Source: Zopfochytrium polystomum (lineage: Eukaryota > Chytridiomycota > Chytridiomycetes > Chytridiales > Chytridiaceae). From it: a DNA stretch of 64,000 nt. The notes under the pieces were generated by a model that was given only the letters and a program-made list of their open reading frames with translations, made no database searches and was not told the origin of the DNA. Numbering within the stretch: position 1 is the stretch's first letter; every line of letters begins with the position of its first letter. Below, piece after piece: positions 11,512 through 62,184 of this stretch. The position numbers and the translations under genes are program-made. Where the stretch lies: the NCBI GenBank assembly GCA_025765615.1, contig JAIVFJ010000019.1:62001-126000 (forward strand). The letters are read 5' to 3'.

Positions 11512-14500
11512 CTACCGCTCCAGCGCCGCCACCACCGGGAACGCCACAAACACAGACACCCCCGCCCCAAGGGCCACCAGCGTGTTGGTGCTGCTCCTGC
11601 TGCTGCTGCCGCCCCCGCCAGCTCCTGCGCCTGCATCGTCGCCGCCGCCGCCGCCGCCGTCGACGAGCAAGCGGCGGTCGCCGCGGAACTCGGGCGCCAG
11701 CCAGAACCGCACGGCCGCGTGGTCCGCGCACAGCCAGCTGCCCTGCTGGATCTGCACGCGCGGCGGCTCGCCCCGCGCGCCGCCTCCTCCTCCCGTCCCG
11801 CCGCCAGCCGAGGCCGCCAGCGGCACTGCCGCCGCCGCCGCCGCCGCCGACAGCGACAGCAAGCTGCTTGTTCGTGCACCGCCGCGACGGGGACCGCCAC
11901 CGCCGCCGCCGCCGCCGTCCGGTCGCCACACGAGCTCGGTGCCGCCCTTGTCCACGGATCGCACGGAGCGCCCGTCGCGGCTGAACGCCGCCGCCACCAC
12001 GTCGTCCGTGTGCGCAGCAAGCCGGTGCGTCTCGGCCGCCTGCTGCAGCGTCACGTGCTTCTGCTCGCCGCCAACCCCAACCACCGGCTCCCCGCCGCCA
12101 CCATCCTCCGCCGCCGCCGCCGCCGCCGCCGTAGCAGCACCAAGGTCCCACACGCGCACGGTCTTGTCCTCGGACGCCGACACGACGCGGCGGCCGTCGG
12201 GGCTAAACGCGACCGCGGTGACGGTGTACGCGTGGCCGCGGAGCACGAAGCCGAGCCTGGCTGCGGCAACGTCCCAGACGCCGACGGAGCCGTCGTACTG
12301 CCCCGTGACGACCCTGGCGCCGTCGGGGCTGAACGCGGCGGAGCGGTAGTACTTGCGCCCGCGGGCCTCGAGCCGCTGGACCTCTGCGGCGGTCTCGACG
12401 TCCCAGACGCGCAGGACGGCGCCGTCGCCGCAGGACAGCACGCGGGCGGAGTCGCGGGAGAAGGCGGCGGCGCGGATCGGGTGGCCGTGCCCGACGAGGG
12501 TGCGCAGGACGGCGCCGGACGCCGCGTCAAAGACGCGCACGGTGCGGTCGTCGCCGCCCGTGACCAGCAGCCGCGCGTCGGCGCTGAACTCGACAGAGTT
12601 GACCCACCCGCGGTGCGTGTCGGCCGGTCGCGCGCGTTCGCCGCCCGTCGACGCGTTCCAGATCACCACCGCGCCGTCGGCGCTGCCCGACGCCACGCTG
12701 CGCCCGTCCGCGCTCGCCGCCACCGCGAGCACCCGCGTCGCGTGGCCCCGCTGCGCCGCCGCGCGCTCCGCGGCCCGCTCGACCGCCGCCGCCGCGCCGG
12801 GCCACGCCGCCCGCGCCGCGGCGGAACTCGCCATGCCCCCGCCGCCCCCGGTCGCCCCCGCCGCGCCGCCGGCGTCCCAGATGCGGATTGTGCGGTCGGC
12901 GCTGCCGGACGCGACGAACCGGCCGTTGGGGCTGACGGCGACGGAGCGCACCTGCGCCGTGTGGCCGGCCAGCCGGCGCAGCTCGGTGCCGTTGGCCGCG
13001 CTGCGGATGCGGACCGTCTTGTCAAAGCTGCCGGCGACGACGTACTGGCCGTCGGGGCTGAACGCGGCGGACAGCACCGCGTAGTGGATCTCGAGGCGGT
13101 GCATCCGGGCTTCGCCGCCGCCGCCGCCGCCTCCGACGCCGACGACGCCCCCGTCTCCACCGTCGCTGCTACCACCACTGCCGCCGCCTCCGCTACCGAA
13201 GCTGCCGCCGCCAGAAATCAGCTCCCACATGCCGAGCGACCCGTCGTCCGAGCCCGACAGCAACACCTCGCGGTCCGGGCTGAACCCGACGGCGTTGACG
13301 CTGCCGGCGTGGCCGTCGAGGGCGGCCAGCAGATCTCCTGTGGCGGCGACCCAGACGCGGACGGTCTTGTCCTCGCCGCCGGAGGCGATCAGGGCGGCGT
13401 CGGGGCTGACGGCGACGGCGAGCACCTCGTCGGTGTGGCCGAGCAATGTGCGGACGACGCTGCGGGTGGCGAGGTCCCAGATTTTGACCGACTTGTCGGC
13501 GCTGGCCGACACGACGCGGGCGGCCCGGTCTGGGGTGAAGGCGACGGCCCACACAGGGCCGTCGTGGCCCTCGAGGGTGAGGAGCTCGGCGCCGAGCGCG
13601 GTGCTCCAGACGCGCACGGTGCAGTCCTGCGAGCCCGAGGCGACTAGCTCAAAGTTGGCGCTGCAGGCCACGGACGTGACCGCCAGGGTGTGTTTCTGGA
13701 GTTTGTGGAGCTCCTGGCCCGTGCGCGCGTCCCAGATCCTCACGGTGCGGTCGCGCGACGCCGAGACGATCTGCTGGCCGTCGGGGCTGAACACCACGCA
13801 GTTGACTTCGTCCGTGTGGCCTTCCAGCACGTTGATGCAGCCGGGCCACGTCGTCCAGCCGCCCTTGAGCACGCGCGGGACGGGCACGTCGGCGGGGAGG
13901 CTTTTCGCGTAGAGTCGATAGAACCCCGACGTGGTTGGGGAGAACGGGACGGCGGTGAAGTAGACCTGGAGTGCCGATTCCTGCAGCGGTATCAGAAACT
14001 TTTGGATCACGCGGACCACGTCCTGGAGGAGCACGTGCAAGTAGACCGAGCCGCGGTCGATCAGGATTTCAAAGTCGGAGGTCGCGTTTTGCAGTGCGCT
14101 CATGGCCGGCATTGCGAGGGGGAGGATCTGGAGGAGGCTCATCGCCTCGAGGAGGTGGTGCAACTTGGTGGAGAAGAGCGTGTGGAGCTGGCGCTCGAGC
14201 GCGGTCATCAGCGAAGATCGGCTGCCTGATGGCCGGGGCGTGGACCGCGACGACGATGCGCTCAGGGCCGATGCGCTCGCCCTCGTCATTGCAAATGAGG
14301 GGCTTTTGCTGCGTGCTGGATCTTTCTTCTTGCGGTTGAACATGGCGGTCAGCCAGTACTTTGGCGGCTTGTAGGGCAGCTCCTCCGACGATGTGGGGGG
14401 GCTTCCGTCGCTTGGAGGCGAGGCGGGCAAGGTGGGCGAGGCCGGGTTGCGGACCAATCCGAACCAAGTCCATTGGGGCTGGTCCGCTATGTACAGCTCC

Positions 14501-17500
14501 GCCGAAGTTCCGCTTGCCGCGTCTTGGCAGTGCTCCCAAAAGTGCTGGACGGCGTAGCGCACGTGCTCGCTGATGCGCCTGCGCACAAAGTTTTTAAAGT
14601 CGGGGACCTCGTCGTGGGCGGCCTTGTACGGCAGGTTGCACATGTTGAACGTAAGGTTCTCGCAGAGCGCCATCACGCACCAGCGTGCGATGTCGCCGTG
14701 CGCTTTGAAGATGTCGACCTGGAGCCTCGAGTCGGCGTAGCGAGTCGGGTCCACCAGGTAGTCCTTGACCGACTTGTGGAAGAGGCGCAGCTTGTTGGTG
14801 CCGTTGTCGAGCACGAGAATCGGTTCCAGCATGCGGATCGCCCGCATCACGTCGTCGGGGTTGTCTTCTGCCAGCAAGGCGACCATGCCCGAGGCGGTGA
14901 GCGGCTTTTTCAGCAGGGCGATGGTGAACAACACGTGCACCAGCGTTTCTTTCGGCCCGTCCGAGTCAAACAGCTGTCCGAATACTCTTGCGTACATGAG
15001 ATCCATGCTGCCGAGGAGGTCCGAGGGAAGGTTTCGGATTTCGGCCATTGTGATGCTTGCTTCTCTTTCGAGCAGCTTGCACGCGGCGATCAGCCAGACA
15101 AAGATGCCCCCGGACTTGCTGACAAGCAGCTTGGCGCCGTTGATGACCAGGTCGGCGTTGGCTCCGTGCGCCTCGAGGAACTTTTGCGCAAATACGATCT
15201 GGTCCGCGTGGTTCTGCTTCTGGTTGGGCTCGATTTTTATGGTAGACAGCTCCTCGAGGGCGCGCTTGATGTCGTCTTCCGGGCGGGCAGTCACGAGCAG
15301 CTTCACCTGCGCCGGCAGGCTGTTGTCCAGCTGCTTGAAGATTTGCAGAATCTCGTTCCGCTGATGAAGCGTCTCGCACTCGTCGAGGGCGTCGACGACC
15401 AGAACGACGGGCCTCTGCAGCTTGTTCGCATCGGAAATGTACTTCAAAGGGCTCGCGATGAGCGTGGAGAACAGTTCTGGGAGGGGACGAGACAGGACGT
15501 CGGGCGTGTTTTTGTACACGGCAAGGAGGACGTTTCCGTAGTGAACGCTAAACTGCGCCAACCCGAATGCCAACGTTACAATCAGGTTTCTCGCGCTGCT
15601 GCGGCGCTCGTCGTCGTGCTTGCAGAAAAACTGGCCGCCCAACAGGCTGAGCGCCTGGAGCTCGTTGGCAATGACGGCAGCCATGACCGATTTGCCCACC
15701 CCGGCTGCACCACATAGCCACATGACGCGATGAGAGTATGACGTGCCAGGTCTGCTCGTGGACTTTGCCGTCCCCACAGTCGGCAGCGTCGGTCCCTGCT
15801 GAACGGATTCCCCAAATGCTGCCGTGGACGGCGGTGAGAGAAACTCCAGCACCTTATCCACCAGCCATTGTCTCGTTCCAGGCAAAAACTCTTTCAGTAG
15901 ACGATCGCGCTCAATGTCCATTTCCGCCGAAAGCGGTTTGAGCCAGTCTTCGAGGCTGTCGATGCTCTGGCGGGGTAGTGATATATCTCGAGCTGGAGTT
16001 TCGTTTTCTTGTTCGATTTTGCGCTTGTTCCACACTTCTCTGGCTCGAGTGACGATTCTGGATGGATTTCAATTGTTAAAAAACGATCGGGCAACAATAC
16101 AGACGGCTCACCGATCCACATCATTCTTCGGATCCACCACCGCGCCCTGCAGCGCCAAAACCTTTGCGACCGTGTGCCGAACGGTCTGGCGGCGCGGGCT
16201 CATTTTGTGAATGTGAAACCTGTCGGGGAAGTCGCTCGCGTCGAACTTGTTGAACAGGATAATGGCGGGGCGGTTCGTGCCATTGAACGGCACTTTGGCG
16301 CGCTCGGACAGAAAAACGGGCAACACGTCGCAGCCGTGCTCTTCTTTCATTTGGAGGGCGAGCTCCCACTAGTTTTTCATTTTGTTTTTTGTATTTGTGG
16401 TTGAGTATAAGGGAAAAATAATTAAGGGGAGGGTGCAGGCTTACTACGATTCCCCAGTCGAGGCGTGGGAGTGTGGATCATACGCCACAAAAGAAAAAAA
16501 AAGAAAAAAAAAGGCAGAGTAAGGCGACGGTGGGATTTACCTCGAGCAGGACATTATCCGGGGTCTCATCGGCCTTCCGCATGTGCTCCATCGCTTTCTC
16601 GGAGCACAGCAGGATGTGCACGCCGGAATGATACAGCGCCGACATAAAGTTTTGCTCCCAGTCCTCGCCGGCGGCAAGGCAAAACGCGTCGAGAAACGGG
16701 TGGAGGCCGTCGTACTTCGACTCTTGCGGGTGGATGCCGCCGAGGTAGAAGGCGCGCTCGTTGTTCAGGATCTTGTCCATTTGCCAAAAAAGCTCCCTCG
16801 CGACTTGGCTCTCGGTGGACTGGCGGTAGCTTAAAGGTTGACGAGGAAAATAGAAAGCGGTTCCGGTTTTGTTGGAGATTTTTTGTTAGTGTGCGGGTTG
16901 ATTTCACGGTATTTGGAGGGACTAGGGAGCACCTGATGAAAAAGGGGTGCCTTTGGACTAGAAACTTGCATTTCCAGTTGTGCATGATGTGGTCCGTCCA
17001 CTTCTCTTTGAGGGCGAGAACAGGAAAGTCAGGAGTGGTTCGCTGAGGTGAATTCCAACGAGCCGAGCCAAGCTCACCAGTGGGCAGCGGTATCGCTACA
17101 GGGTTCTGGCTTTGGTTTGGCGCTGTAGGAGTCTGCACAGGGGCTCCGGTAGGCGGATCGGGCGGGCGAGGCGAGTGGCTGCTTTCTAGAGTGATCACCT
17201 TTTTCAGAGGCGAACACAAAAAGAGGTTGCCGCAATCAAAGTTAAAAGCAAGGTGGGGGGATGCACAGAGTCGTCACAATGTCGGTGTTTACCTCCCACT
17301 GATAATTCTGCGACAGGACACCGACAATATCGTCGTCGCTTCCGAGGATGCAGACCTCGCCATTTGCCGGGTCCGTGTACTCGAGCTCGACGGGTTCGGA
17401 TATGCGCCATGCGGACGCGACCTTTTGAAGCAGGCTATCGTAGCCGGCGGCAGGCACGACCCTGATGTTTCGGTACCTGTCCTTGAATTTGCAGCGAATG

Positions 17501-17589
17501 AGAATGTCGTTGCTAGAATTAAGTTGGTTTTGAGACGAGGGTTGCGAGAGAAGCCGTTGCGGCTGATGCTGCTGCTGCTGCCGGCTCAT
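11512..17589 (-). CDS. PB1-TIR-NACHT-WD40 NLR-like protein
   Basis: Six exons (17589-17293, 17198-17078, 17005-16933, 16829-16541, 16368-16112, 16057-11512) sum to 5583 nt, exact frame, 1860 aa. The ATG at 17589 opens the protein. Residues about 25-98 look like PB1: basic CKFKDRYRNIRV, then an acidic OPCA-like LEYTDPANGEVCILGSDDDI. A Pro-rich linker follows. Residues about 150-330 read as TIR: YRQSTESQVARELFWQMD, GEDWEQNFMSALYHS, VHILLCSEKAM, then LLE-WELALQMK and VLPVFL. The Glu of WEL sits at the position of the catalytic Glu of NADase TIRs. NACHT: Walker A CGAAGVGKS (about 462), Walker B VVLVVDALDEC (about 565). Thirteen WD40 blades run from about 1085 (INVLEGHTDEVNCVVFSPDG), with Gly/Ala-rich insertions and a low-complexity tail. 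By family knowledge the WD region senses, NACHT oligomerises, and TIR signals or cleaves NAD+. The role here is inferred. Confidence 0.85.
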
Positions 17590-29340: not shown

Positions 29341-32300
29341 ATGTCCGACCGACACGATCAGAGTAGGAGCGCCCCTGCCGCCGCCGCGGACGCTGGAGCA
29401 GCCACCGAAGCCGCCGCCGAGGCCGCCGCGGCCGCCTCGGCTCGCAAAGATCGTGCCCTCGACTCCATCGGCGAAGGCAGCAGTAGCAGTGTTGGAATGA
29501 AGCTGAACGGCACACCTCCCGCTCCAGGCAACGACACCGACGGCTACCCGCCACAAAATTCTGAGGCGGCCAACAGCAAAGGCCTGCCGAACAAGTCTCC
29601 TCAACCCCCTCCGCCCCGCCCTTCGTCGACCTTTGACGCCGAGCGCTACCGTGCCGACTTCGACACGTCAAGCACAAAGCTACCGATTTTTCCCTACAAG
29701 GATGAGCTGGTCGAAGCCGTGGCGGCTTTCCAGCATCTCATCGTTGTCGGCGACACAGGTAATAATGTTTGAACCCAACAAGCAACCCATCCTCCCCCCC
29801 CCCCCCCGCCTCGCCCACTGCCCACTCGACATATCATCAACTTTCCGCTCCAAGTTCGTGCGCGTTTCTGACCATAGCATTCCAGGCTCCGGAAAAACGA
29901 CCCAGCTGCCACAGTATTTGCACGAGGCAATGCCCGAAGCACGCATTCTCGTCACTCAGCCCCGGAGGATCGCCGCAATATCTGCGGCAACCCGCGTCGC
30001 CGAAGAAACGCGCACCCGACTGGGGTCTCTTGTTGGCTACTCGGTCCGCTTCGAGTCTGTGCGGTCCGCGTCCACTAAAATCCTGTACATGACGGACGGT
30101 GCGTTGCTTCGATCGGTCGCGACCCGCCGCTTGCAAGACTCTTCTTTAGTGGGCGGCGGCGGCGGCGGCAACGGCGGCGGCGCAGCGCTTGAAGACCTCG
30201 CGGACATAATAATTCTGGACGAAGCGCACGAGCGGTCGCTCGAGACCGACGTGCTCTTTGGCCTGCTCCGCACCCTCGCGCAGTCCCGCCCGTCCCTCAA
30301 GCTCATCATCATGTCGGCTACGCTCAACGCCGACAAGTTCTCGGACTTTTTCGACCAGGCGCCCGTCTTCTCGGTGCCCGGCCGCGTGTTCCCCGTCGAC
30401 ATCTTTTACGCGCGCCGCGTCAAGATGTCGGCGCTCAAGGGCCAGTACGTCAACCGCGCAGTCGAGGCCGTCGTCGCGATCCACTCGAACGAGGACCCCG
30501 GCGACGTGCTGGTGTTCTTGACCGGCCAGCAGGACATTGAGACCGCGTGCCGCCTCGTCCGCGAGGCCGTCGACGCCCTCCAGCCCTCCGATCTCAAGGC
30601 GTACCCGGCCGTGCGCGCCATCTCCGTGCACCCGATCTACTCGGCGCTGGACACGGCAGAGCAGAAGGCCGTGTTTCGACCGGCGAAGGACGGGTACAGG
30701 AAGATTGTGGTCGCGACAAACATTGCGCAGACGTCCGTCACGATCCCGGGGATCCGCTACGTCGTCGACAGCGGGTTTGTGAAGGAGAAGATGTTCCATC
30801 CAAAGACGGGCGTGGACGCGTTGATCGTGGTGCCGATTTCAAAGGCGGCCGCCACGCAGCGGGCCGGACGCGCTGGCCGGTGAGTTTTTTTTTTTGTTTC
30901 TTCTTTTTTTTTTCTCAGTCGGTCGACTTTTCTGAAAATAATTTTCTAATGATGCAATGTATGATTGATTCACTCACAGAACCGCTCCCGGAAAAGTCTT
31001 TCGGCTGTACAGCCAAGACGCGTTCGAGACCCTCGAGATGGACACGACCCCGGAGATCCAGCGGTCCTCGTTGCTGGGCACGGTCCTGTCGCTCAAAAAG
31101 ATTGGCATCGCCAACGTGCTCGACTTTGAATTCATCGACCCGCCCGAACGGTCGCTGATCGTCACCGCCCTCCGCCAGCTCTACTACCTCGGCGCCCTCG
31201 ACCCCGACGGCGCCCTGACCCCGCTCGGCCACCAAATGTCGCTGCTGCCGACCTCGCCCTTCCTCGCCCGCGCCCTCATCGCCGCCTGCACACCGCCCGC
31301 GGACCACCAGGACAATTGCGGCGAGGAGATGCTCACCCTCGTCGCCATGCTGTCGTCGGAAGACCCGTTCCTTGCGCCGCGCGCAGAGGACAAGCGTGCC
31401 GAGGCCGAGCTGATCCACGCGAGGTTTGGCGGCGGTGGGGGCGGCGGCGACGCTTCTGTTTCTGCCGCCGCCGCCGCCGGCAAAAAGTCGAGCGCCGCCG
31501 CCAAGACGCGGCAGCCCCCGCGCTCGTTCGTCAGCGGCGACCACCTAGCGCTCGTCAGGGTGTTTGACGCGTTTGTCCAGGCCTGCGGCGGCGGCGGTGC
31601 AGGCGGCGGAGGCGCAGCGCAAGAGGCGCAGTGGTGCCGCCGTCGCTTCCTCCGGCTCCGCGCCCTGCGCGCCGCTCGCTCCGTCCGCGAGCAGGTCGCG
31701 GAGATCCTGACGGGCGAGCTCGGCCTCCGGCTGGGATCTTGCCGCATCCGCGCCGCTGCGCCGCTGCCGTCGCCGTCGCCGCGCAAGCGCCGCCGCCGCG
31801 ACGACGACGACGAAGAGATGGACGTCGACGACAACGGCAATGACGACCGCCAGCGCCGGCGCGGCGGGTCGTTTCGGTCTGACCAGCGCAGCGGCGCGAG
31901 CCCGCGACGCCGTCGCAACAATGGCCACGGCCACCGCGACCGACGGCGCGGCGGGGGGTTCGGCGGCGTCGACAGGGACGACGATTATGACTACGACGGT
32001 AGCGGTCACTACGACGCCGACGACGGCGACGACCCCGCGCGCGACGTGCTGGCCAGCTTCGATCACGTGCCGATCCTGAAAGCGGTCTGCGCCGGGTTCT
32101 TTGTCAACACGGCCCGCCGCCACCCGCACCGGAACATGTACTACCACTACCTTATCTCGAGCGGCGCCGTCGGGCGCTCGGACCTTTCGGTCGGCGGCGG
32201 CGGTGGAAGCGGAAGCGGCGGAAAGACCAAGGACGATGGTGACAAAGACAACGACGACGACGGCGACGACGACGACGCCGACGCCGCCAACGCCATGATG

Positions 32301-32549
32301 TCGCTGTACATCCATCCGTCGTCGTGCCTCGCCTTTGCGTACCGCGCCGCGGCGGCGCCGTCCTCGTCGTCGTCGATGTCGATGGCACCCTCCAGCAGCA
32401 TCCACCACCACCACCACCACCACCACCAGCTCCCGGACTGGGTGGTCTACCAAGACCTGCAGTTTGTCACGCGCGCAAACATGCGCGTCGTCAGCCGCAT
32501 CGACTTTGCGTGGGTGCAGGACGGGGGTAGCGAGGGTGCGCGAGTGTAG
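29341..32549 (+). CDS. DEAH-box RNA helicase, DHX40-like
   Basis: Exons 29341-29758, 29886-30879 and 30980-32549 total 2982 nt, 993 aa, exact frame. The first intron splits the P-loop GDTGSGKTTQLPQYL. Other motifs: VTQPRRIAAISAATRVAEE (Ia), IILDEAHERS (II, DEAH), IIMSATLNADKFSDFFD (III), VFLTGQQDIE (IV), ATNIAQTSVTIPGIRYVVD (V) and QRAGRAGR (VI). The second intron follows GRAGR. The C-terminal part (LPTSPFLARALI, DHLALVRVF, WCRRRFLRLRALR, then IHPSSCLAF and WVVYQDLQFVTRANMRVVS) matches the HA2/OB region of DHX40/Prp43-type helicases. Large Gly-, Asp- and Arg-rich insertions interrupt the C-terminal half (about 690-840), plus a His run. It is predicted to remodel RNA or RNP in the nucleus. DHX40 is my best match by motif, but DHX8/DHX15 relatives are not excluded. 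Confidence 0.92.
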
Positions 32550-40005: not shown

Positions 40006-41544
40006 TCATCTCCCCCTTTTAGGCCTCTTCTGCAACTTGGTGGGGTACCTGGTCTTGAACTCGAGCAGAAGGTCTTGGCAGTGAGTGAGGTTTGACTCAG
40101 GCTCCCAGGTGTTGTCAGCATCTGAGTAACCTTTCCACTTAACAAGGAACTTGAGTGTTCTTCCAAACCACTTGGCATCCAAGATTTGTTCAACCTCAAA
40201 TTCCTCTTCACCTTCTACCTCAACTGGAGGAGGAGGAGGAACAACTCTGCCTGGAATGGAATTGGCCACAAACTTCTCTAAAAGGCTGACATGGAAAACT
40301 GGGTGGATCTTCATGGATGCAGGGAGATCCAGCTTGAAGGTGACTGGATTGATTTGCTCCAAGATCTTGAAAGGTCCCAACTTGAGGTTGTCTAGCTTGG
40401 GACTTGGTCTTTTGGTCTGCAAGTTCTTCCTCATGCCTGGCCAGTAAAAGTCTCTGGAAGCAAGCTCATATGTCTTGTGCTCTCCTGGGTGTCCAGCTGT
40501 TGCTGCAACATGCCTTGTCTTGAGTATCTCAAGTTTTTCCTCTTCTTGGCTGATTTGAATCTTGTGAGGCTTGGGGTCCTTGGAAATAGCATGGGCCCAC
40601 ACACTGTCAGGAAGCAGTGAAAGGTGTGTCTTGGAAGGTGGGGTGAAACCATCTCCCCCTTCAGGTGCAAGGTCTGTCCTTCTGTGCTCATCAGCAGTGG
40701 GGCTTGAATTGTTGACTGGGAACTGTGATTCTTGAATCTTTGACTGAGGGTTCTGTTCTTGGCAAAGACTGTGAGCTGTGGAGCTTGAATCTTGAATTTG
40801 GACTGTGAACTGTGGTACTTGAATCTTTGACTGTGGGTTCTGTGAACTACAGACTTGGCCATGACTGTGAGCTCTATGAGCTGTGCTGGAATCTTGACTA
40901 TGAACTGTGAACTGTGAAACTTGAATCTTGGCTGGGATCTGTGAGCTGCAGGCTGATACTGGAGCTGTCATTTGTGGTTGACCTTGGATACTAGGCTGAG
41001 AGCCTTGAATCAGGGACTTGAGAGCATGAGACTTGGAGGCTTGACTTGAGTTTTGGGTGACTGTTCCAATTGGTGGAGGTTGGACTTGACCAGTGACCCA
41101 ATCAATGGCAGGGTTCTGGGCTTGCAGCCATGGTAATCCCAGGATGACAGAGAATGTGGGTGAGCCAAGATCCAATACTTCCAGGTTGACCATGGATGGT
41201 GGAAAGTCTTGGATGTGGAGGTTTAGCTTGGTTTCATGGCTGATTTCCTTGAACAGAGCATGATTGGCAAAGTGGATCTTGAGGGGTGTGGATTTCTTGA
41301 TGGTAGGAATGGCACAAGACTTGGCAAGGGTGGCATCAATGATGTTGCAGGATGATCCAGAGTCTATAAGGGCCTTGGTTGTGATGGTTGACTTGGGTGA
41401 GAGTTGAATCTTGACATCCATGGTGAGTTGGTGGGGCTTGGAATCTGAGGTGTTTGTGGTGCTGGTGGTGGTGATGAAACAGGGGCAGCTTGGAGGAGGG
41501 TCCAGGGAATTGCCCCTCAGTGAGCCTGGACCTGGGAGTTTGGG
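40006..41544 (-). CDS. Mini-pol: retropepsin, partial integrase and chromodomain
   Basis: It is entered from gag by -1 frameshifting at the heptamer at 41538-41544 (plus strand GTTTGGG). The protease has ALIDSGSSCNIID (DSG active site). The frame then passes a Gln/Ser-rich spacer directly to RRTDLAPEGG and the HHCC zinc region start (GHPGEHKTYELASRDFYWPG). There it joins [19 protein letters not shown] (GPY/F module) and [19 protein letters not shown] chromodomain follows (EFEVEQILDAKWFG, FLVKWKGYSDADNTWEPE). Both deletions keep the frame. The second joins at a shared TGAGGAAG. No RT, RNase H or DDE core remains, so it cannot transpose alone. Confidence 0.85.
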   Translation of the reverse strand, partial: PKLPGPGSLRGNSLDPPPSCPCFITTTSTTNTSDSKPHQLTMDVKIQLSPKSTITTKALIDSGSSCNIIDATLAKSCAIPTIKKSTPLKIHFANHALFKEISHETKLNLHIQDFPPSMVNLEVLDLGSPTFSVILGLPWLQAQNPAIDWVTGQVQPPPIGTVTQNSSQASKSHALKSLIQGSQPSIQGQPQMTAPVSACSSQIPAKIQVSQFTVHSQDSSTAHRAHSHGQVCSSQNPQSKIQVPQFTVQIQDSSSTAHSLCQEQNPQSKIQESQFPVNNSSPTADEHRRTDLAPEGGDGFTPPSKTHLSLLPDSVWAHAISKDPKPHKIQISQEEEKLEILKTRHVAATAGHPGEHKTYELASRDFYWPGMRKNLQTKRPSPKLDNLKLGPFKILEQINPVTFKLDLPASMKIHPVFHVSLLEKFVANSIPGRVVPPPPPVEVEGEEEFEVEQILDAKWFGRTLKFLVKWKGYSDADNTWEPESNLTHCQDLLLEFKTRYPTKLQKRPKRGR

Positions 41545-42440
41545 TGCTTCTTCCTTGGGCAGTCCTTGACAGCATGCTCCTTGGAGCCACAGTAGAAACA
41601 CAGTCCCTGCTGGGCCCTCCTTGTTTTCTCCTCTTGGCTCAGAGGACCCTTAGGAAGTGTCTCAACTGCATCCACTTGCATGGGTTCAGGAACTGTAAGA
41701 GCTTGAGGGACTGGGGTAGGTCTTGATGTAGTTCCTACTTGTCTTTGCTTCATCCTCTTGGAGTAGAGTCTGTTGTCAATCTTGATGGCAAGGAGAATGT
41801 ACTCTTCCAAGGTCTCAGGGATGTGCAGAGACTGGGAGAGCATGTCTTGGATGGACTCATGGAGACCATCATGGTACAGCTCCATCAGAGCTGCATCATT
41901 GTATCCAGAGTCTCTGGCTAGTTGCTTGAATTGGTTGGTGTAGGCCACACAAGATTGCTTTCCTTGCTTGATATGCTTGAGCTTGGATCTTGCTGTCCAA
42001 GATGCGTAGGGGTCACCAAAGGTAGCTTCCAGCCCCTCCCAGAGCTCTTGCAGGGTGGTGGGTGTGCTTGGGAGAGATCTGTACCATGATTGAGCTTGAC
42101 CAGACAGGAGGGTGCTTGTGAAAAGAACCTTGACTTGCTCACTGGGAAATCTTGAAGGTTGGAGAAGGATGACATTCTCCACAGTGGCCATGAAGTTCCT
42201 AAGGTCTTTGGCCAGCCCAGTGAACTTGTCAGGGCTGGGAACCTTGGGCTCTCTTGCTTGGTTGGCTTGAGGCAGGGGAAGAGCTTGATGTTCTTGTTGG
42301 TGAAGTTGTTGTTGAAGCTGGTGCTGCTGGTGAAGGACTTGTTCTTGAAGTTGGTGTGTCTGTCTTGAGAGGGCTTGTAATTGGTCCATCAAGGCTTGGA
42401 AGGCAGTTGCATCAGGGAAGGTGTTGTTTGGGTCAGACAT
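41517..42440 (-). CDS. Gag polyprotein of the deleted chromovirus
   Basis: 307 aa from ATG 42440. A Gln/Leu/His-rich N-terminal coiled segment is followed by the retrotransposon gag domain (FTGLAKDLRNFMATVENVIL, LLSGQAQSWYRSLPS, WEGLEATFGDPY) and one CCHC zinc knuckle (CFYCGSKEHAVKDC). It forms virus-like particles and packages RNA, by family knowledge. It appears identical at protein level to the gag at 44282-45205. Confidence 0.93.
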   Translation of the reverse strand: MSDPNNTFPDATAFQALMDQLQALSRQTHQLQEQVLHQQHQLQQQLHQQEHQALPLPQANQAREPKVPSPDKFTGLAKDLRNFMATVENVILLQPSRFPSEQVKVLFTSTLLSGQAQSWYRSLPSTPTTLQELWEGLEATFGDPYASWTARSKLKHIKQGKQSCVAYTNQFKQLARDSGYNDAALMELYHDGLHESIQDMLSQSLHIPETLEEYILLAIKIDNRLYSKRMKQRQVGTTSRPTPVPQALTVPEPMQVDAVETLPKGPLSQEEKTRRAQQGLCFYCGSKEHAVKDCPRKKHPNSQVQAH

Positions 42441-44281: not shown

Positions 44282-45205
44282 ATGTCTGACCCAAACAACA
44301 CCTTCCCTGATGCAACTGCCTTCCAAGCCTTGATGGACCAATTACAAGCCCTCTCAAGACAGACACACCAACTTCAAGAACAAGTCCTTCACCAGCAGCA
44401 CCAGCTTCAACAACAACTTCACCAACAAGAACATCAAGCTCTTCCCCTGCCTCAAGCCAACCAAGCAAGAGAGCCCAAGGTTCCCAGCCCTGACAAGTTC
44501 ACTGGGCTGGCCAAAGACCTTAGGAACTTCATGGCCACTGTGGAGAATGTCATCCTTCTCCAACCTTCAAGATTTCCCAGTGAGCAAGTCAAGGTTCTTT
44601 TCACAAGCACCCTCCTGTCTGGTCAAGCTCAATCATGGTACAGATCTCTCCCAAGCACACCCACCACCCTGCAAGAGCTCTGGGAGGGGCTGGAAGCTAC
44701 CTTTGGTGACCCCTACGCATCTTGGACAGCAAGATCCAAGCTCAAGCATATCAAGCAAGGAAAGCAATCTTGTGTGGCCTACACCAACCAATTCAAGCAA
44801 CTAGCCAGAGACTCTGGATACAATGATGCAGCTCTGATGGAGCTGTACCATGATGGTCTCCATGAGTCCATCCAAGACATGCTCTCCCAGTCTCTGCACA
44901 TCCCTGAGACCTTGGAAGAGTACATTCTCCTTGCCATCAAGATTGACAACAGACTCTACTCCAAGAGGATGAAGCAAAGACAAGTAGGAACTACATCAAG
45001 ACCTACCCCAGTCCCTCAAGCTCTTACAGTTCCTGAACCCATGCAAGTGGATGCAGTTGAGACACTTCCTAAGGGTCCTCTGAGCCAAGAGGAGAAAACA
45101 AGGAGGGCCCAGCAGGGACTGTGTTTCTACTGTGGCTCCAAGGAGCATGCTGTCAAGGACTGCCCAAGGAAGAAGCACCCAAACTCCCAGGTCCAGGCTC
45201 ACTGA
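44282..45205 (+). CDS. Gag polyprotein
   Basis: 307 aa starting MSDPNNTFPDATAFQ. It has a Gln-rich coiled N-terminus (LQEQVLHQQHQLQQQ), a gag domain with FTGLAKDLRNF and AQSWYRSLPSTP, and a CCHC knuckle CFYCGSKEHAVKDC near the C-terminus. The stop TGA at 45203-45205 lies just after the frameshift heptamer. It is intact in this copy. Confidence 0.95.
   Translation: MSDPNNTFPDATAFQALMDQLQALSRQTHQLQEQVLHQQHQLQQQLHQQEHQALPLPQANQAREPKVPSPDKFTGLAKDLRNFMATVENVILLQPSRFPSEQVKVLFTSTLLSGQAQSWYRSLPSTPTTLQELWEGLEATFGDPYASWTARSKLKHIKQGKQSCVAYTNQFKQLARDSGYNDAALMELYHDGLHESIQDMLSQSLHIPETLEEYILLAIKIDNRLYSKRMKQRQVGTTSRPTPVPQALTVPEPMQVDAVETLPKGPLSQEEKTRRAQQGLCFYCGSKEHAVKDCPRKKHPNSQVQAH
45178..45184 (+). promoter_or_regulatory. 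Gag-pol -1 ribosomal frameshift heptamer
   Basis: CCCAAAC is in the gag frame as C-CCA-AAC, a perfect X-XXY-YYZ slippery site. It lies 19 nt before the gag stop codon. The pol frame is exactly -1 relative to gag. A downstream stimulatory structure was not verified. Confidence 0.65.
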
Positions 45206-48200
45206 GGGGCAATTCCCTGGACCCTCCTCCAAGCTGCCCCTGTTTCATCACCACCACCAGCACCACAAACACCTCAGATTCCAAGCCCCACCAACTCACC
45301 ATGGATGTCAAGATTCAACTCTCACCCAAGTCAACCATCACAACCAAGGCCCTTATAGACTCTGGATCATCCTGCAACATCATTGATGCCACCCTTGCCA
45401 AGTCTTGTGCCATTCCTACCATCAAGAAATCCACACCCCTCAAGATCCACTTTGCCAATCATGCTCTGTTCAAGGAAATCAGCCATGAAACCAAGCTAAA
45501 CCTCCACATCCAAGACTTTCCACCATCCATGGTCAACCTGGAAGTATTGGATCTTGGCTCACCCACATTCTCTGTCATCCTGGGATTACCATGGCTGCAA
45601 GCCCAGAACCCTGCCATTGATTGGGTCACTGGTCAAGTCCAACCTCCACCAATCGGAACAGTCACCCAAAACTCAAGTCAAGCCCCCAAGTCTCATGCTC
45701 TCAAGCCCTTGATTCAAGATTCACAGCCAGCCAAGACTCAAGTTCCACAGTTCACAGTTCACAGTCAAGATTCAAGTAGAGCTCATAGAGCTCACAGTCA
45801 TGGCCATGACTCTTGTTCACAGAACCCACAGTCAAAGATTCAAGTACCACAGTTCACAGTCCACATTCAAGATTCAAGTTCCACAGCTCACAGTCTTTGC
45901 CAAGAACAGAACTCTCAGTCAAAGATTCAAGAATCACAGTTCCCAGTCAAGAATTCAAGCCCCACTGCTGAGGAGCACGACAACCTGGACCCATCAGACC
46001 TTTTGCTGGCATCCAAGCTACCAAAAGAATATCTCCCTTATGCTGATGTGTTTTCCAAGACCAAGGCAGACCTGCTACCAGCTCAGAGGCCTTATGACTG
46101 TGAAATCCCACTCAAGGATGAAACTTGCAGCCCACCTTTCAAGCCACTGTACCACCTCTCTCCACCAGAAGCCAAGGCCCTCCAAGAATACATTGAAGAA
46201 ATGCTGAACAAGGGATTCATCCAACCTTCCAAGTCACCAGCTGGAGCTCCCATCTTTTTTGTCAAGAAGAAGGATGGGGGACTGAGACCCTGTGTGGACT
46301 ACAGAGATCTCAATGAGATGACAGTCAAGAACCGCTATCCACTGCCTCTCATCTCTGAATTACTGGACAAACTGAGCCATGCAAGGATATTTTCCAAGAT
46401 TGACCTCAGAGGTGCCTACAATTTGGTCAGAATTAAGCCCCAGGATCAATGGAAGACTGCCTTCAGATGCAAATACGGTCACTTTGAGTACTTGGTCATG
46501 CCCTTTGGACTTACCAATGCTCCAGCTATTTTCCAAGGCATGATGAATGACATCTTCAGGGATATTCTGGACCTTTTTGTCATTGTCTACCTGGATGATA
46601 TCCTGGTATTTTCATCTGACACTGCAAGCCATATGGGACATGTCAAGACTGTCTTGGGGAGACTCAGACAGCATCACCTCTATGCAAAGCTGGAGAAGTG
46701 TGAATTCCACAAGACCTCCATTGAGTTTTTGGGGTTCATTGTGTCTGACAAAGGGATCTCCATGGCACCAGACAAGATCCAAACTATTCTTGAATGGAAG
46801 GCTCCAAATTCCATCAAGGATGTTCAAAGCTTCCTTGGATTTTGCAACTTCTACAGAACCTTCATTGCCAACTATTCTGCCATAGCCAAGCCTCTCACTG
46901 ATCTCACCAAGAAGACCACCAAGTTTGAATGGACCCCAGCAGCAGAGCAAGCCTGGCTAGCTCTTAAGACAGCAACCACAAGTGCACCACTCCTTAAGCA
47001 TGTGGATCCCTTGCTTCCCTTCACCTTGGAAACTGATGCCTCAGACTATGCCCTTGGCGCTGTTCTGTCCCAGCCAAGCTCTCAGGACCCCTCTGCTCCT
47101 CTGCATCCAGTGGCATATTACTCCAGGAAGCTGAACAGTGCTGAGTGTAACTACGCAGTCCATGACAAGGAGTTGCTTGCAATTGTGGAAGCATTCAAAT
47201 TCTGGAGACACTACTTGGCTGGTTCTAAAAACATCTCTGTCTATTCGGATCACAAGAACCTCACCTTCTTCAGGGCAAGGAGGTTGCTCAAGCAGAGGCA
47301 TGCCAGGTGGGCTGAACTGCTCTCTGAGTATGACTTTAAGCTGTGCTATTCTCCTGGCCACCTTAACACTGTGGCTGATGCCCTGTCAAGAAGAACAGAC
47401 CTTGCACCTGAAGGGGGAGATGGTTTCACCCCACCATCCAAGACACACCTTTCATTGCTTCCTGACAGTGTGTGGGCCCATGCTATTTCCAAGGACCCCA
47501 AGCCTCACAAGATTCAAATCAGCCAAGAAGAGGAAAAACTTGAGATACTCAAGACAAGGCATGATGCAGCAACAGCTGGACACCCAGGAGAGCACAAGAC
47601 ATATGAGCTTGTTTCCAGAGACTTCTACTGGCCAGGCATGAGGAAGTACATCAAGAACTATGTCAGCAGCTGTGAAACCTGTCAAAGAAACAAATCCAGC
47701 AGACACAAGCCCTATGGACTTCTGGAGCCCCTCCCAATTGCCATCAGCCCTTGGTCATCAATATCCATGGACTTCATTGTGAAACTGCCCCCATCCCATG
47801 GATTTGACTCTATCCTTGTTGTCATCTGCAGAAGGACAAAGTTGGCCCATTTCATCCCCTGCACTGAGAATATAGATGCACAAGGAACAGCAGACCTGTT
47901 TTTGCAGCACATATTCAGGCTCCATGGGCTGCCTCAGTCAATCGTCAGTGACAGAGGACCACAGTTCAGATCTCAATTTTGGAAAGCACTCACAGCAGCC
48001 CTTGGAATCAAGTCTCAACTGTCAACTGCTTATCACCCTCAGACTGATGGACAAACAGAAAGAACAAACCAGACTCTGGAGCAGTATTTGAGGTGCTATG
48101 TCAGCTATCAACAGGATGATTGGCCCACCCTCCTTCCACTGGCAGAATTTGCTCTCAACAATTCTCTCCACTCAAGCACCCAGCTATCTCCTTTCTTTGC

Positions 48201-48843
48201 AACCTATGGCTTCAATCCAAGAGGAGATCTTCTGGGACAAGAGACCCTATCCAATGTCCAAGCTCCTGCTGCTGGCTTCACACTTAGCATAAGCTCAAGA
48301 TCATCAGCACCTTCCTGGACTCCACCCTGAAGCAAGCCCAAGAAGATGCCTCAAGATTTGCCAACACTCACAGAATGGACCATGACCTTGCTGTGGGTCA
48401 GCAAGTTTGGCTTCTGAGGAAGAACTTGCAGACCAAAAGACCAAGTCCCAAGCTAGACAACCTCAAGTTGGGTCCTTTCAAGATCTTGGAGCAAATCAAT
48501 CCAGTCACCTTCAAGCTGGATCTCCCTGCATCCATGAAGATCCACCCAGTTTTCCATGTCAGCCTTTTAGGAGAAGTTTGTGGCCAATTCCATTCCAGGC
48601 AGAGTTGTTCCTCCTCCTCCTCCAGTTGAGGTAGAAGGTGAAGAGGAATTTGAGGTTGAACAAATCTTGGATGCCAAGTGGTTTGGAAGAACACTCAAGT
48701 TCCTTGTTAAGTGGAAAGGTTACTCAGATGCTGACAACACCTGGGAGCCTGAGTCAAACCTCACTCACTGCCAAGACCTTCTGCTCGAGTTCAAGACCAG
48801 GTACCCCACCAAGTTGCAGAAGAGGCCTAAAAGGGGGAGATGA
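45178..48843 (+). pseudogene. Pol polyprotein (protease, RT, RNase H, integrase, chromodomain), frameshifted
   Basis: The open frame to 48330 holds retropepsin ALIDSGSSCNIID, RT (CVDYRDLNEMTVKNRYPLPL; VIVYLDDILVFS catalytic YLDD), RNase H (LETDASDYALGAVLSQ), the integrase HHCC zinc region (GHPGEHKTYEL...CETCQ) and the DDE core (SMDFIVKLPP; VSDRGPQFRS; TDGQTERTNQTL). A 1-base loss near 48283 ends the frame early. The true continuation ([18 protein letters not shown]) reads in another frame. A 1-base insertion near 48572 (GGAGAAG versus GAGAAG in the deleted copy) breaks it again before the chromodomain (FEVEQILDAKWFG, KWKGYSDADNTWEPE, ending at 48843). The chromodomain class targets integration to histone-marked chromatin in related elements. 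Confidence 0.93.
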
Positions 48844-61478: not shown

Positions 61479-62184
61479 ACACGTGACCTCAGTACGTCAT
61501 CAGATGCTGCGGCGTGCACTTGACAGCTCCAGGTATGTGCTGATACATTAGCTTGGGCATTGGGTCCCTGTGCGACCCCTAGGGTAGGCCTGCATTCCTA
61601 GTGTGCCCAGTAAGGCTCCAACCAAATTGCTTTACCTCGGCTCAACAACCCTGCGCACGCCGACAAGAGGCGGAGCAGTCTGTCTACAGAGGCAGGCAGA
61701 CAGGCAGGGAGTGAATGTGGTTCCCATTGCAGCTGAGTGGGCCTGTGAAGGGGATGAAGTCTGGCCAGTGTGGAGACAGGCGCACAGCGCCTGTTGGAAC
61801 CCTTTTGGTCGTCAAAAACGACTTTGCCAGGTGGAACTGACTTTGTGGAGAGAAGTCAGAGCTAGCCATTTCGCTATGCGCTGGCCCTAGTTTCATCACG
61901 AAAGTAGCATTGGTACATTGTGCCACAACGCATCTCGGTGGCACCTACACTTAACGGGTAAATCGTCGTTGATGATGACCCGTTAGCTTCGTTTGCTGGT
62001 GTCAAGGTGGTGCATGTCTCTCGCTTGTCTCATGTCGCAAGTTTTTTGTGTTTCGTTTTTGATGTTTTTTTGTGGGTGGAAAAAAAAAAAAGGTAATCCC
62101 AACCACGTGCCTCATCTGCCTGTCTCCTCTCTCTATCTTGTCTCTTTCTCCCACTGTCTCTCTCTCTGTCTCTCTCTCTCTCTT

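Follow-up and report, generated by a model that had tools for sequence, protein, structure and literature searches.

Introduction

The gene treated here lies on the minus strand, at 17589..11512, of a 64,000-nucleotide stretch of the genome of the chytrid Zopfochytrium polystomum (the window: positions 62,001 to 126,000 of contig JAIVFJ010000019.1, assembly GCA_025765615.1), and it encodes a putative PB1-type domain, a Toll/interleukin-1 receptor (TIR) domain, a NACHT domain and a WD40 propeller. The closest described systems are the NACHT-WD40 proteins of Podospora anserina and a PB1-TIR gene of a peanut species. The study of the Podospora blades with which we compared ours is presumably that of Paoletti and colleagues. 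It reports positive selection at blade codons 7, 9, 25 and 27, and the two codons of either pair lie on both sides of a conserved residue (PMC1805685).

In Arachis stenosperma, AsTIR19 is described in excerpts of PMC9786959 with PB1 at residues 9-111, TIR at 135-294 and NB-ARC at 339-525. The same excerpts state that the fusion is supported by RNA-seq, that PB1 is suggested to aid oligomerisation, and that AsTIR57 also carries PB1 (two of 24 TNx genes); the peanut gene is presented as a resistance gene and is used in engineered plants. Because of this precedent, PB1-TIR is not new for nucleotide-binding leucine-rich repeat receptors (NLRs) at large, and a claim that it is absent from print was withdrawn. 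A preliminary description of the window, made from the letters alone, did not recall PB1 before TIR in this class of proteins. AsTIR19 speaks against any wide form of that statement, and its fungal form stands in that no fungal PB1-TIR NLR was found in the open-licence full-text literature.

For chytrids, passages of PMC9815663 report TIR domains in NLRs of Chytridiomycota, passages of PMC4986451 report an NLR search in chytrids that gave no matches, and passages of PMC12258605 report NLR counts in 122 fungal proteomes, ten of them from chytrids. The term PB1 is absent from the main text of these three papers, of PMC12881547 and of the TIR survey PMC7075850.

Here we describe the window gene as a predicted six-exon member of a PB1-TIR gene family. 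From sequence, it is probably an intracellular NLR, of the class of signal transduction ATPases with numerous domains (STAND), that would turn nonself recognition into TIR activity and cell death.

Results

The window gene and its family

Exon-by-exon reconstruction of the gene gave six exons, a spliced length of 5,583 nt and a protein of 1,860 residues with a single terminal stop. The five introns, of 94, 72, 103, 172 and 54 nt, were all of the GT-AG type and the reading frame was kept across all joins, as the preliminary description had proposed. The parts of the gene are as follows.

17293..17589, minus strand: exon 1, residues 1-99; PB1 core at residues 28-99 (17508-17293), from the family alignment
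17385-17326, minus strand: OPCA-type acidic motif LEYTDPANGEVCILGSDDDI in exon 1
17078..17198, minus strand: exon 2, Pro/Ser-rich linker, residues 100-139; GT-AG and in frame in the window copy
16933..17005, minus strand: exon 3, start of the TIR (WKCKFLVQRHPFFI); a separate piece also in many paralogs
16541..16829, minus strand: exon 4, TIR body, TIR_2 match; codon of the predicted catalytic Glu260 at 16543-16541, from SARM1 and Cat1 alignments
16112..16368, minus strand: exon 5, C-terminal part of the TIR; codon of the WEL Glu262 at 16365-16363
11512..16057, minus strand: exon 6, NACHT, helical region and WD40 propeller; stop-to-stop open frame of 1,518 residues
15226..15729, minus strand: NACHT (PF05729); P-loop GAAGVGKS at 15711-15688, Walker B VVLVVDALDE at 15408-15379
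11910..13839 (limits approximate), minus strand: WD40 repeats with Gly/Ala-rich inserts (PF00400)

Profile searches of the window protein scored TIR_2 at 38.2 bits (Pfam cut-off 28) within 16112-17005, the interval in which a TIR match had been set beforehand as the test of the proposed domain, and NACHT at 38.2 bits (cut-off 26.7). The WD40 total was 396 bits over 12 scored stretches, which upholds the WD40 propeller; thirteen blades had been counted in the preliminary description. A HET domain was not matched among the Pfam families searched with residues 1-365, where TIR_2 scored. The gene has the features of a fungal NLR/STAND gene, namely a NACHT domain with Walker A and B motifs, C-terminal repeats and an N-terminal TIR. 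These scores support both the order of domains and the NLR-like interpretation given in the preliminary description, whose observation is confirmed; its interpretation is partly supported, as detailed below.

The genome contained 131 matches to exon 1 and 206 matches to the TIR piece. Placement of PB1 relative to TIR used 120 of the former and 150 listed matches of the latter; the eleven PB1 matches left out had E-values of about 0.005 or worse, while those on contigs C176 and C113, equally weak, were kept. At least 91 of the 120 placed PB1 matches, on 76 contigs, had a same-strand TIR 198-657 bp downstream (median 421), and 91 of the 99 merged TIR loci, among the matches listed, had a PB1 upstream. 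PB1, TIR and a scored NACHT were combined at no fewer than 58 loci, in 40 of which the NACHT frame reached at least 1,000 residues.

Distances between PB1 copies and between TIR copies were correlated over 30 loci (r = 0.83, a value reached in none of 2,000 permutations; r = 0.81 when the deposited protein P0001 is left out), which argues that the PB1 and TIR exons travel together. This comparison left out L048, L056 and L061 (partial TIR), L055 and L060 (near duplicates), and L018 and L063-L070 (no spliced TIR).

WD40 repeats

We compared the WD40 arrays of ten genes. Seven arrays were homogenised, with a blade identity of 0.73-0.86, and held 53 distinct combinations at positions 10, 12, 28 and 30 in 58 blades; some blades escape the strict pattern, which makes the blade numbers minima. 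The ratio of nonsynonymous to synonymous differences (pN/pS) was 1.49 (bootstrap 1.14-1.94) at these four sites and 0.39 (0.28-0.54) at 36 others, once the six most variable were set aside, with 60 bootstrap replicates over 56 distinct blades; the arrays of the window gene, L074 and L078 were left out of this test as non-homogenised. Positions 10, 12, 28 and 30 have the same spacing as codons 7, 9, 25 and 27 of the Podospora blades with a shift of three, and each pair flanks a conserved residue (V11 and D29), from which we equate the two sets. The same WD40 sites are thus hypervariable in the chytrid siblings as in Podospora HET-D and HET-E.

Two results weigh against the receptor reading of the window gene. 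The window array, of 10 blades by the strict pattern, had a mean pairwise identity of 0.35 and was not homogenised, so that diversifying selection holds for the siblings and not for the window copy; and for three of the seven homogenised arrays (L063, L066 and L068), the TIR of the locus is lost or partial. The first suggestion of an immune or allorecognition role gains support from HET-E-style diversifying selection on the sibling WD40 surfaces and not from the divergent blades of the window copy itself.

The identity of the diversifying positions with those of HET-D and HET-E also favours a narrower explanation, in which the receptors serve cell-to-cell allorecognition and not defence against viruses or parasites. 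Against it, chytrids are not known to us to show heterokaryon incompatibility, although no search aimed at this was made. Pressure from viruses is plausible, and a virus is one candidate trigger, because double-stranded RNA of strain WB228 was purified in a mycovirus screen, according to a portion of PMC7482067. We regard a purely allorecognition role as possible but unlikely.

TIR domain

All 17 aligned family TIRs matched TIR_2, LLEWE was invariant among them, and a BB-loop-like HxFxDxxCLxxGxxW stretch was kept in most family TIRs. Alignments with SARM1 and with bacterial Cat1 placed the enzyme Glu on the first Glu of LLEWEL, which is residue 260, encoded by the final codon of exon 4; these alignments are weak, and the SARM1 residue in this column is taken as the catalytic Glu642. 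The Glu of WEL (residue 262), previously named as the catalytic one, lies two residues off and has to be replaced in that role by the Glu of LLE. The position of the intron between LLE and WEL was conserved: of the 38 loci read, 36 showed DNxLLE with a GT donor after it and 37 showed WEL, and its recurrence in paralogs makes it more than chance. By these alignments, the TIR is predicted to cleave nicotinamide adenine dinucleotide (NAD+) via Glu260.

The alignment of the family TIR profile with SARM1 was weak (E 0.37), which counts against an enzymatic TIR; that of the Dinochytrium relative was better (E 4.1e-4). No PDB structure was matched by the TIR profile at E 0.1. PB1 is an interaction domain and TIRs also act as adaptors, and this weak matching of solved TIRs would suit a TIR that is a scaffold and not an enzyme, clustered TIRs recruiting another TIR or PB1 protein that kills. 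The invariance of the SARM1-aligned Glu in 17 of 17 TIRs and the retention of the BB-loop-like stretch tell against such a scaffold, which we consider unlikely.

State of the family

Among close copies, the median pN/pS was 0.37 for PB1 (45 pairs) and 0.32 and 0.45 for the TIR exons (29 and 39 pairs, respectively), the pairs being non-independent. Both domains evolve under purifying selection.

Inspection of ten of the 29 PB1 matches without a listed TIR showed that L061 and L062 do carry one, that the TIR was partial in L065, L066 and L069, and that PB1 was followed by NACHT at L063 and L068, with no TIR found between them in the loci read. PB1 alone was recovered at L064 and L067, and L070 (C72:98100-101600) retained PB1 and WD40 remains cut by a region that by eye resembles a Ty3-type integrase. 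Three further matches of the 29, on C110, C428 and C113, do have TIR exons downstream. Since additional TIRs turned up and some loci are partial, the figure of 91 sets a lower bound on PB1-TIR loci but overstates how many genes are intact. Equal PB1 match scores were found for C66:44644 and C191:73090, and for C83:79497, C83:216871 and C284:66547, which suggests recent duplication.

The loci that lack some parts (L063, L064, L067, L068, L069 and L070) weigh against the proposed receptor reading. Together with the equal-scoring duplicates and the Ty3-interrupted copy, the TIR-lacking copies would be expected if the family had multiplied as repeats and were decaying, with no present function, and the window copy had survived by chance; the purifying selection on PB1 and TIR, the long NACHT frames of 40 of the 58 three-domain loci and the intact 1,860-residue window frame render this very unlikely.

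Some NACHT matches fell outside the three-domain pattern. At C9:617697 and C79:62485, NACHT lay 489 bp downstream of PB1 with no TIR among the matches listed, and the C9:617697 locus retains a frame of 1,343 residues. No upstream TIR was present, again among the matches listed, for 27 of 86 NACHT matches; at least one of them, on C159 (L001), has a TIR piece by tblastn. Twelve of the 27 had frames of 403-422 residues and may belong to a different NACHT family.

PB1 domain

Of 26 aligned family PB1 exons, 21 matched PF00564 with an E-value of at most 1, the lowest being 5.8e-9, and every other Pfam family named matched one member only. Among solved structures, the family PB1 profile matched PB1 of an NBR1 homolog (E 4.1e-4), MEKK3 (0.011), Cdc24 (0.11) and PKC zeta (0.34). 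The first Asp of the OPCA motif was present in 44 of 44 family copies, and the window exon carries the motif. The N-terminal exon is therefore best read as a PB1-type domain, an identity that rests on its relatives.

Several results weigh against this identity. The window exon alone had no PB1 match in Pfam, residues 1-139 being without any family; its sole Pfam-type match was to GLF, at chance level (E 0.22). The PB1 segment of P0001 likewise had no Pfam PB1 match. The family profile also matched non-PB1 chains, Npl4 at E 0.053 and VAV2 at 0.23. An AlphaFold model of the window exon, made with two sequences, was poor (mean predicted local distance difference test score, pLDDT, 54), and Foldseek searches with it gave PB1 matches with a probability of up to 0.95 and a best E of 0.18, none being below 0.15, while FERM domains scored alike. 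The PB1-like N-terminus of the preliminary description is consequently upheld by the relatives and not by the window exon itself. A different ubiquitin-fold domain in place of PB1, for example RA or a Crinkler-like one, would account for the unmatched window exon, the FERM-like scores of the poor model and the weaker Npl4 and VAV2 matches, and is most improbable in view of the PF00564 matches of 21 of 26 relatives against at most one member for any other family, of NBR1 and MEKK3 PB1 domains as the best PDB matches and of the OPCA Asp in all 44 copies.

Lys is the usual basic residue of strand beta-1 in PB1 domains, which are divided into type I and type II. The column aligned with the NBR1 Lys held a basic residue in just 4 of the 44 copies, namely Arg in the window copy (L009, R32), L011, L012 and L014; the beta-2 pair was basic in 35 and 39 of 44 copies. 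With beta-1 mostly non-basic, beta-2 mostly basic and OPCA kept, most family PB1 domains appear type I-like, their basic patch being incomplete. The basic patch and OPCA motif first described for the window copy are both present there (R32 and OPCA), and the beta-1 part of the patch does not extend to most of the family. Nine other PB1 frames of the same genome (L021-L029) carry, by eye, a Lys near the start of beta-1, and one of these, L024, looks NBR1/p62-like because of a Cys-rich ZZ-like stretch, also seen by eye.

Deposited proteins and tandem PB1 segments

P0001 combines a PB1-like segment, a TIR and a NACHT-type NTPase in one deposited model. It mapped exon by exon to C110, six segments at 93-99% identity and two short ones at 84-85%; P0001 and P0002 both belong to the Z. 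polystomum genome and were dropped as evidence from a second species. P0001 had no WD40 match in Pfam, and its residues 860-913, after the NTPase, resembled a C1-like zinc domain below the cut-off (E 9.2e-4). Its AlphaFold model, with four sequences, was unusable (mean pLDDT 34.5). Directly upstream of P0001 and on the same strand, bases 412-1875 of L082 (C110:8300-11300) hold a frame rich in Gln, which includes a PB1-like domain (hhalign probability 95.5) and may be a separate gene or a first exon.

The deposited P0002 starts at the TIR, and PB1-like exons at its locus seem to have been missed by the model. On C428 (L083, 18800-22200), two PB1-like segments that matched the family profile (hhalign probability 98.8 and 97.0) preceded the P0002 TIR, with a weak third (66.5), and on C113 (L084, 125900-129400) tandem PB1-like segments lay upstream of a TIR (99.0 and 81.6). 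These values come from single pairwise profile tests, and both loci are candidate tandems. An internal segment of P0002 was rejected as PB1 (hhalign probability 0.1).

Protein searches with the PB1-TIR regions returned P0001 and P0002 of Z. polystomum and two TIR relatives, P0003 (Nowakowskiella) and P0004 (Dinochytrium), whose N-termini were rejected as PB1 against the family profile (hhalign probability 0.2 and 1.2, respectively). A search of the protein collection with P0001 matched nothing but P0001. That no other family members came from this collection is an observation and not proof, because the search needs shared words and similar length.

Genome context

Z. polystomum belongs to the Chytridiales; its assembly has 80,164,350 bases in 761 contigs, with the window gene on contig C19. 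A passage of PMC9926174 gives Cladochytrium polystomum as the largest chytrid genome (81.2 Mb, 12.3% transposable elements), which we take to be Z. polystomum because that sentence cites the Zopfochytrium description. The window also holds exons of a DEAH-type helicase (DEAD, Helicase_C, HA2 and OB_NTP_bind) at 29507-32549 on the plus strand, a Ty3-type frame with reverse transcriptase, RNase H, integrase and protease domains at 45073-48330 on the plus strand, and a second, partial Ty3-type frame with a chromodomain at 40006-41649 on the minus strand.

Discussion

We propose that a ligand, which could be a foreign protein or one of the cell's own that a parasite or a non-identical cell has altered, would bind the WD40 propeller, upon which the NACHT domain, assigned as the switch by its motifs, would exchange nucleotide and oligomerise. 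The TIRs would then cluster and cleave NAD+, and the cell would die or signal, as the precedent of NLRs and TIRs suggests. The acidic OPCA face of PB1 may plug into a putative basic-faced PB1 partner, placing or bridging receptors, and the same genome encodes PB1 proteins with Lys in beta-1 as candidate partners, L024 among them with its NBR1-like look. The preliminary description had offered nucleation or recruitment as the role of PB1. Self-nucleation is weakened for most siblings, since the acidic face is kept and the basic face only in part, and recruitment of a basic-faced partner would fit better.

A more speculative extension would make the acid-only siblings with diversifying WD40 repeats sensors and the copies with a basic face (window, L011, L012 and L014), whose WD40 repeats would be stable and non-homogenised, helpers that join the sensors head to tail in one common TIR assembly. 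Non-homogenised arrays were found in the window copy (0.35) and L012 (0.45), and L011 and L014 each showed one standard blade in the 1.2 kb read per locus. The non-basic L033/L074 is also non-homogenised (0.52), which weighs against such a network, as does its basis in the WD40 arrays of ten genes, and we consider it improbable. If it existed, it would be a fungal counterpart of the sensor-helper NLR networks of plants.

Comparison with enzymes and scaffolds places the two N-terminal domains. The TIR has a BB-loop-like motif and an aligned Glu in common with SARM1 and Cat1, from which it differs in its regulatory domains and in that its activity is predicted only. The PB1 shares the acidic OPCA face with the NBR1, Cdc24 and MEKK3 scaffolds matched by the family profile; in contrast to these, it heads a TIR-NACHT receptor and mostly lacks the basic residue of beta-1.

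Plant TIR NLRs have NB-ARC and leucine-rich repeats (LRRs). The chytrid family shares with them, and with the small group of fungal TIR NLRs, an N-terminal TIR, an NTP-binding switch and a repeat sensor, and differs from both in combining NACHT with WD40, in the PB1 ahead of the TIR and in its number, at least 91 PB1-TIR loci in one chytrid genome. AsTIR19, as far as the excerpts of its report go, has PB1, TIR and a nucleotide-binding domain arranged as in the window gene; its nucleotide-binding domain is NB-ARC, no C-terminal LRR or other repeat is named there and its PB1 is of type 2, whereas the chytrid family has NACHT, mostly type I-like PB1 domains and about 90 loci. A PB1-TIR head in both a fungus and, on those excerpts, a peanut species suggests an assembly mode for NLR heads.

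The Podospora HNWD/NWD proteins (HET-D, HET-E and HET-R) share NACHT-WD40 with the chytrid family, and the homogenised blades of the siblings vary at the same residue pairs. HNWD proteins are ascomycete proteins with an N-terminal HET domain, whereas the chytrid gene has PB1 and TIR in that place and the blades of the window copy are divergent. A WD40 face that diversifies at the Podospora allorecognition residues puts this sensor strategy outside Dikarya, by common descent or by convergence.

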